Below are positions 1 to 671 of a DNA stretch of 39,528 nt, piece by piece. A program made the position numbers and the translations under genes. The stretch spans positions 1 through 39,528 of the forward strand of contig JAISQF010000013.1 in the NCBI GenBank assembly GCA_031274365.1, read 5' to 3'. The notes below the pieces were generated by a model. That model had not been told where the DNA came from. It did not search any database and worked only from the letters and a program-made list of their open reading frames with translations. The stretch comes from Elusimicrobiota bacterium (GTDB lineage Bacteria; Elusimicrobiota; Endomicrobiia; Endomicrobiales; Endomicrobiaceae). Numbering within the stretch: the stretch's first letter is position 1; every line of letters starts with the position of its first letter.

Positions 1-33
1 ACAGACAGACAGACAGACAGACAGACAGACAGA
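1..33. repeat. (ACAG)8 tetranucleotide tandem repeat
   Basis: Eight perfect ACAG units plus one base begin exactly at the window edge, so the array may be longer. No frame through the array contains a stop codon. It encodes repeating Thr-Asp-Arg-Gln in the frame that continues into the downstream methyltransferase. A four-base unit inside a coding frame would shift the frame on slippage. Confidence 0.9.
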
Positions 34-671
34 ACTGCTATATTGCCGATATAGGGGGGAGTAATGGCGATATTGCAAAAATGATGACAGACGAAGGATT
101 TAATATGATTCTAATAGAACCTACAAAAGAAGCTTGCGTCAACGCTTCAAAAAAAGGAATTTCAAATATTATATGCGGATATGTTAATGATAATGATTTC
201 AATCCTAAATGTTTTGACGATTGCTTGCTGTCAAATGTTTTAGAACATATAGAAAAAGATATTGATTTTCTCAAATGTTTAAAAGATAAAATGAAAGAAA
301 ATGCAAAGATTATTATTTTGGTTCCCGCTTTTCAATTTTTATGGAATAGTAATGATAATGTCGCAAAACATTTTAGACGCTATTCGTTAAAAAGATTAAA
401 TAAGGCGGCTGTTGAAGCTGGTTTTAAGGTTTTATTTTCAAGCTATTTTTTTAGTTTTCTGTTTTTACCAATGCTTGCTATTAAAATTTTAGAGAGATTT
501 GGATTCATAAAAAAATATGACGTCAATAATGAAACTTATAAAAACAGACATACGGGCGGATTTCTCACTAATTTTATTATAAAAATTTTTAATAAGATAG
601 AAATAAAATTTATGAGATTAAAAATAAAAATTCCTTTTGGCACAAGTATTGCGCTTGTCGCCCGGAAATAA
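3..671 (+). CDS. SAM-dependent methyltransferase, 5' end missing at window edge
   Basis: Class I SAM-dependent methyltransferase of the type common in surface-glycan and lipid clusters. The start is outside the window. The open frame runs through the ACAG repeat and then gives ADIGGSNGDIAKM, which matches SAM-binding motif I (DxGxxxG). An ATG at 81 lies behind this motif and so cannot be the real start of a working enzyme. An acidic Glu in LIEP follows strand 2, NVLEHIEKD is motif IV-like, and VPAFQFLWNSND followed by HFRRYSLKRL is typical of the family. A hydrophobic stretch near residues 110-130 after the ATG at 81 (FFSFLFLPMLAIKIL) suggests membrane association. The substrate is unknown. 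The following gene is an O-antigen ligase-like protein, which fits a glycan role. Confidence 0.8.
   Translation, partial: RQTDRQTDRQNCYIADIGGSNGDIAKMMTDEGFNMILIEPTKEACVNASKKGISNIICGYVNDNDFNPKCFDDCLLSNVLEHIEKDIDFLKCLKDKMKENAKIIILVPAFQFLWNSNDNVAKHFRRYSLKRLNKAAVEAGFKVLFSSYFFSFLFLPMLAIKILERFGFIKKYDVNNETYKNRHTGGFLTNFIIKIFNKIEIKFMRLKIKIPFGTSIALVARK

Follow-up and report, generated by a model that had tools for sequence, protein, structure and literature searches.

Phase variation is known chiefly from host-associated pathogens and animal commensals. Among the systems described so far, lgtC of Haemophilus influenzae is a phase-variable surface-glycan gene under the control of GACA repeats (PMC3938747). 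In hsdS1 of the NgoAV system, switching takes place at a poly-G tract located between the HsdS halves (PMC9577141), and tetrapeptide repeats, TAEL in EcoR124I and EcoR124II, LEAT in NgoAV, act as spacers of HsdS (PMC3874165, PMC6789123). A GCAGA array resides in the leader of the Streptococcus gallolyticus pil1 locus, and translation of leaders with 21, 22 and 23 repeats stops just before, well before and within a hairpin, respectively (PMC3894217).

The DNA analyzed here, referred to as the window, is a stretch of 39,528 nucleotides from a member of the Endomicrobiaceae (Elusimicrobiota), and corresponds to the whole contig C2 of a 1.04-Mb draft genome, made up of 22 contigs and about 59% complete. 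The window opens with an ACAG array residing within a methyltransferase gene, the 5' part of which is found at the end of a second contig of the same draft, C18. The features of interest, all on the forward strand, are listed below.

1..33, + strand: (ACAG)8.25 array, encoding RQTD/TDRQ repeats (repeat finder; an identical 33-nt array is found at the end of C18)
3..671, + strand: class I SAM-dependent methyltransferase, 3' part (ORF, Pfam, homologue alignment); the 5' part, 64 codons from the ATG at C18:50844, would reside on C18
48..71, + strand: SAM-binding motif I, DIGGSNGD (aligns with DIGGGNGV of the homologue in genome G005)
52..54, + strand: TAG stop, predicted to end translation that emerges from the array in window frame 1 (sequence reading; 6 residues past the array)
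62..64, + strand: TAA stop, predicted to end translation that emerges from the array in window frame 2 (sequence reading; 9 residues past the array)
938..3274, + strand: Wzy_C/O-antigen-ligase-like membrane protein with TPR repeats, not itself repeat-controlled (conserved in most relatives tested)

The ACAG array and the methyltransferase frame

The array is perfect (Tandem Repeats Finder: period 4, 8.2 copies, 100% match); 33 nt, or 8.25 copies, is its assembled length, as the window array is truncated by the contig edge. Sites resembling (ACAG)4 gave 5 overlapping matches in the window, and none in 100 dinucleotide shuffles. An open frame of 222 aa, frame 3, extends from base 3 to a stop at 669-671 and reads RQTDRQTDRQ-NCYIADIGGSNGD. 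The first-pass annotation had placed the repeat in frame with the DIGGSNGD motif, and array and motif are indeed read in this one frame.

The window protein matches the Pfam profiles Methyltransf_23 (7.5e-08) and Methyltransf_11 (4.8e-06), both over the curated cut-offs, and the match includes motif I, as in class I SAM-dependent methyltransferases. Neither a DNA-methylase nor a specificity domain was detected in it by Pfam or NCBIfam. On present evidence the enzyme does not appear to be a phasevarion regulator, and the gene should not be termed a phasevarion gene because the product carries neither type of domain. The array starts at about codon 64-65 of about 286, is internal to the gene and precedes motif I; the methyltransferase frame extends 211 codons past it. 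All three forward frames are open through the array, and TDRQ is read in each. The AlphaFold model has pLDDT values below 50 for residues 13-84, and is too poor for placing the repeat.

Replication slippage would add or remove the four-base unit, and shift the frame downstream of the array. In one frame of three the whole enzyme would be made, the repeat contributing a TDRQ linker between the N-terminal helix and motif I. In the other two frames translation would stop within 31 nt of the array, motif I would be missing, and the gene would be OFF. The first ATG past the repeat (position 81) is also downstream of motif I, and an active enzyme is hardly to be expected from initiation there, as motif I would be lost. 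The unit is not a multiple of three, resides in an ORF and is reiterated far past chance, and the other frames lead to early stops and to the loss of an essential part, all traits of simple-sequence-repeat (SSR) contingency genes, which vary in phase at the level of translation. The switching by a four-base unit proposed in the first-pass annotation agrees with the in-frame repeat and with the premature stops in the two other frames; the known devices cited there have their repeats near the 5' end of the gene, a location that does not hold for this array, which is internal.

We rate at about three in four the probability that the gene encodes a phase-variable (ON/OFF) accessory methyltransferase of about 286 aa, probably acting on a surface glycan, and is one member of an ACAG-based set of phase-variable genes. 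The length of the array would presumably vary in the living population.

Contig breaks at ACAG repeats

Four ACAG arrays are found in the source genome, all at contig ends: at the start of C2 and the end of C18 (33 nt each), and at the start of C12 and the end of C16 (118 nt each). The window edge exists since contigs break at the ACAG repeat. The repeat lies inside two genes and the assembly is broken there; copy numbers can therefore not be read from this draft.

At the end of C18 a ribosome-binding site and start codon (AAGGAGTGTTTT-ATG) are followed by 64 codons (MELKALLKNP...WWERCNANVVISLFNKY), and then by (ACAG)8.25 in the phase that C2 requires. We infer that C18 and C2 are joined from the completion of the gene, the frame and the intact homologue described below. 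Via this join, the gene has a start codon and a ribosome-binding site upstream of the repeat, as SSR contingency genes have. Finding a start upstream of the repeat had been named as a check in the first-pass annotation, switching being refuted if the real start lay after the repeat; the ATG on C18 answers this objection. Gene order upstream of the O-antigen-ligase-like gene differs among relatives, and the join is neither backed nor contradicted by synteny. Provided that the two 33-nt contig ends represent a single array, the gene is predicted to be in frame (ON).

The substrate is likely a surface glycan, as judged from the gene neighbours. Genes encoding a GT2 glycosyltransferase, a YdjC-like protein and a GtrII-like protein are located upstream on C18, and the downstream gene for the Wzy_C/O-antigen-ligase-like TPR protein was found in six of nine relatives tested. 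The surface variation guessed at in the first-pass annotation from the gene at 938 agrees with this surface-glycan neighbourhood.

Several contigs of the source genome start with poly-C; in C1, C3 and C6 (L147, L148, L150) the runs comprise 22-70 C, poly-G reading outward. These runs could be real tracts or an artefact of sequencing chemistry. An intergenic 18-G run is found in the window at 39424-39441. Flanks like those of this run accompany a G15 run at C4:25780 (L144), and C11 and C17 runs at the start of C5 (L149), a pattern that suggests a dispersed element carrying a poly-G tract. A 12-nt G/C run is located at C1:33093-33104 (L142), in an ORF reading like a hexapeptide-repeat acetyltransferase; the frames before and after the run differ at its present length, and the gene looks switched off.

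ACAG repeats in the family and in the phylum

ACAG repeats were monitored in 77 genomes of the family and in 341 genomes of the phylum. Matches were found in 16 family genomes (E <= 1, some of them weak), and in 23 phylum genomes (E <= 0.001). The control repeat (AACG)16, which has the same base composition, gave no match in the 77 family genomes.

The second gene broken at a repeat in the source genome is hsdS, of a type I restriction-modification system. C16 ends with hsdM, the first specificity domain of hsdS and the array; C12 starts with the array, followed by the second specificity domain of hsdS and by hsdR (L022, L021). The ACAG repeat is accordingly found between the two specificity domains, and domains of the DNA-methylase or specificity type, absent from the window protein, are present in the hsdM/hsdS/hsdR products. 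A genome of genus g8, probably Endomicrobiellum, features (ACAG)5.5 in frame between the hsdS halves, at the same site as in the source genome (G053, L100). In hsdS, a change of one or two units would truncate HsdS, a change of three would add TDRQ. As read by eye, further arrays reside near the 5' end of a gene for a glycosyltransferase-like membrane protein and of a histidine-kinase-like gene.

In family f15 of the same phylum, short ORFs starting with MKNKNAV apparently contain the repeat as read from the opposite strand (CTGT, LSVC repeats; L125-L131). In genome G158, an ORF which by eye resembles a DNA methyltransferase of the adenine-specific type leads into an ACAG array at the end of a contig, and a DUF262-like ORF is found behind the array on another contig (L133/L134, ends of C1 and C2 of that genome).

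Leader arrays of Endomicrobium proavitum and relatives

The chromosome of E. proavitum Rsa215 (G011) is circular, and was sequenced by PacBio as one contig of 1,588,979 bases (PMC4505116). Nine ACAG arrays (L067-L075) are found in it, all in short leader ORFs before intrinsic terminators, none in long genes. Several of the leader ORFs are located directly behind a -10-like TATAAT box. The genes which follow are mostly outer-membrane or surface genes, and include those for an OmpA-like protein, OMP_b-brl barrels, large repeat-rich secreted proteins and a TibC-like glycosyltransferase. Similar leader arrays occur at L080, L081, L097, L099, L121, L135 and L136. No Rfam family corresponds to the leader elements (only two tRNAs were matched, in one locus), and matches to the TACTCTT pattern without an array fall mostly within ordinary genes.

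The position of stops was analyzed in 17 loci of the phylum families f1 and f14, reduced to 14 once close copies were removed. In each of the 14 leaders, one frame has its stop within 14 nt of the array; shuffles gave 10.3 such leaders on average, and 46 of 5000 shuffles equalled the observed count. The longest frame extends as far as the terminator hairpin, again in every leader (8.9 on average in shuffles, equalled by 4 of 5000). A second frame ends within 8 nt of the hairpin or inside it in 11 leaders (3.3 on average in shuffles, equalled by 0 of 5000). These shuffle figures are optimistic, the thresholds having been set after the positions were seen. Judged by the upstream start codons, the early-stop frame is the present state of eight of the nine E. 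proavitum leaders (P about 0.001 under random frames, the start codons being the analyst's reading and some loci being copies of each other).

Two paralogous E. proavitum loci share 399 of 400 downstream bases (99.75%), yet have 10.0 and 16.5 copies of the unit; array length therefore changes faster than the flanks. At L068, L069, L070, L072 and L073 upstream and downstream modules are found in all four combinations around the array, a result which suggests recombination at the arrays of the leader loci.

A wider reading, on which the odds seem to us evenly balanced, is that ACAG repeats may run a lineage-wide set of phase-variable genes in Elusimicrobiota by two mechanisms. One would be frame switching in genes for accessory methyltransferases and for HsdS, at sites which different genera have retained; the other would be leader-peptide attenuation, at multiple loci, of genes for outer-membrane and surface proteins. 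On this reading, a single HsdS tract could truncate the subunit as well as lengthen the spacer in TDRQ steps.

Homologues of the methyltransferase and alternative explanations

Among the 77 family genomes, a clear relative of the methyltransferase was found in one other genus (G005). The homologue is a single intact ORF of 289 aa, aligned over the entire query (6.3e-58, 42% identical), with a methyltransferase Pfam match as in the window protein. It carries (ACAG)7.5 at the same codon, straight after the N-terminal helix and before DIGGGNG. A second gene of the same genome is cut at this same codon by an ACAG array of its own, at a contig end. These sequences show that the ACAG site is kept while the protein diverged by more than half. 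The methyltransferase gene is missing from nearly all genomes of the family, including the only further genome of the genus of the window, which is 83% complete. In a scan of named genomes, the alignment including the repeat found no relatives; the alignment devoid of the repeat found only the G005 record (MAG Nm470_bin11) and a gene of a Lachnospiraceae MAG. The latter, from a Lachnospiraceae-labelled record (L152), is a more distant homologue without an ACAG array at that site. Its frame changes around 560-600, near a six-G run, and the gene may be broken or miscalled.

The array might be a real microsatellite which does not switch, a hydrophilic TDRQ linker which the enzyme tolerates between N-terminal helix and core, changes in length being purged by selection. 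The location between helix and core, the openness of all three forward frames and the in-frame state of the two complete versions (7.5 copies in G005, and 8.25 here provided that the overlap of the contig ends is exact) agree with such a linker. A unit which is not a multiple of three is however an odd choice for it; ACAG is moreover found at the same codon in homologues about 40% identical, as well as in several unrelated genes, and array lengths differ at otherwise near-identical E. proavitum loci. We regard a passive linker as unlikely.

An artefact of assembly or binning, low-complexity reads having stuck to the contig edge of a gene which has no such repeat, is less probable still. The first-pass annotation had kept this in mind as the array lies at the window edge. 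Poly-C runs also begin several contigs of the same draft. Against it, a matching half-gene with the same array, in the right phase, is found at another contig end, and the chromosome in which the E. proavitum arrays reside was finished by PacBio sequencing. The G005 homologue is uninterrupted and has the array internally, at the same codon; a simple edge artefact is therefore ruled out, and the earlier worry is answered.

That the window array acts on transcription, as part of a leader or attenuator like those of E. proavitum, is the most improbable reading: many ACAG arrays of relatives do reside in leader ORFs before a terminator, but conserved methyltransferase coding sequence is found on both sides of the window array.

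Comparison with known systems

A phase-variable methyltransferase gene, the reading preferred here, would make the window feature a conventional phase-variation device; what makes it interesting is the lineage, and how many loci there use ACAG. Endomicrobiaceae range from free-living termite-gut bacteria to flagellate endosymbionts, and the presence of the ACAG device suggests diversification of surface and DNA-modification systems there too. In the open-access full text, no paper was found on Endomicrobium, Elusimicrobia or Elusimicrobiota dealing with phase variation or with such repeats. Since E. proavitum is available in culture, and ON and OFF frames are clearly predicted for each of its nine arrays, the leader version lends itself to a direct test.

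The resemblance to lgtC is threefold: GACA is ACAG in another register, the context is that of glycan genes, and ON and OFF states would be set by frame. The window gene differs in that its product is a methyltransferase, whereas lgtC encodes a galactosyltransferase; its repeat is found near codon 65 and not at the very 5' end, the organism belongs to the Elusimicrobiota, and the window switch is predicted. With the phase-variable methyltransferases of restriction-modification systems (type III mod, NgoAV HsdS) the window gene shares a repeat within the gene of a modification enzyme; unlike those of phasevarions, the enzyme of the window is a small methyltransferase of class I, encoded within a glycan cluster.

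The window array sits inside a long conserved ORF, and not in a short leader ORF before an intrinsic terminator, as Pil1-type attenuators do. The likeness to pil1 concerns the leaders of E. proavitum and other Elusimicrobiota, in which a repeat-bearing leader ORF has one frame that stops early, and others that end at the base of the terminator hairpin or within it. These leaders differ in the ACAG unit and in the occurrence of nine loci in one genome, and their attenuation is predicted. Leader attenuation was considered as a new mechanism, and rejected as such, having already been published for S. gallolyticus (PMC3894217). The Elusimicrobiota arrays would extend a mechanism which, in the papers searched, we found described only for the pilus loci of that species.

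The hsdS repeat of the source genome, located between two specificity domains, can be compared with the poly-G tract in hsdS1 of NgoAV. It is also similar to the spacers of EcoR124I, EcoR124II and NgoAV, as a tetrapeptide-coding 12-bp period is found in the central part of HsdS, three ACAG units corresponding to TDRQ. It differs from these spacers because one or two ACAG units would shift the frame, and three would add a tetrapeptide; one tract could do both.
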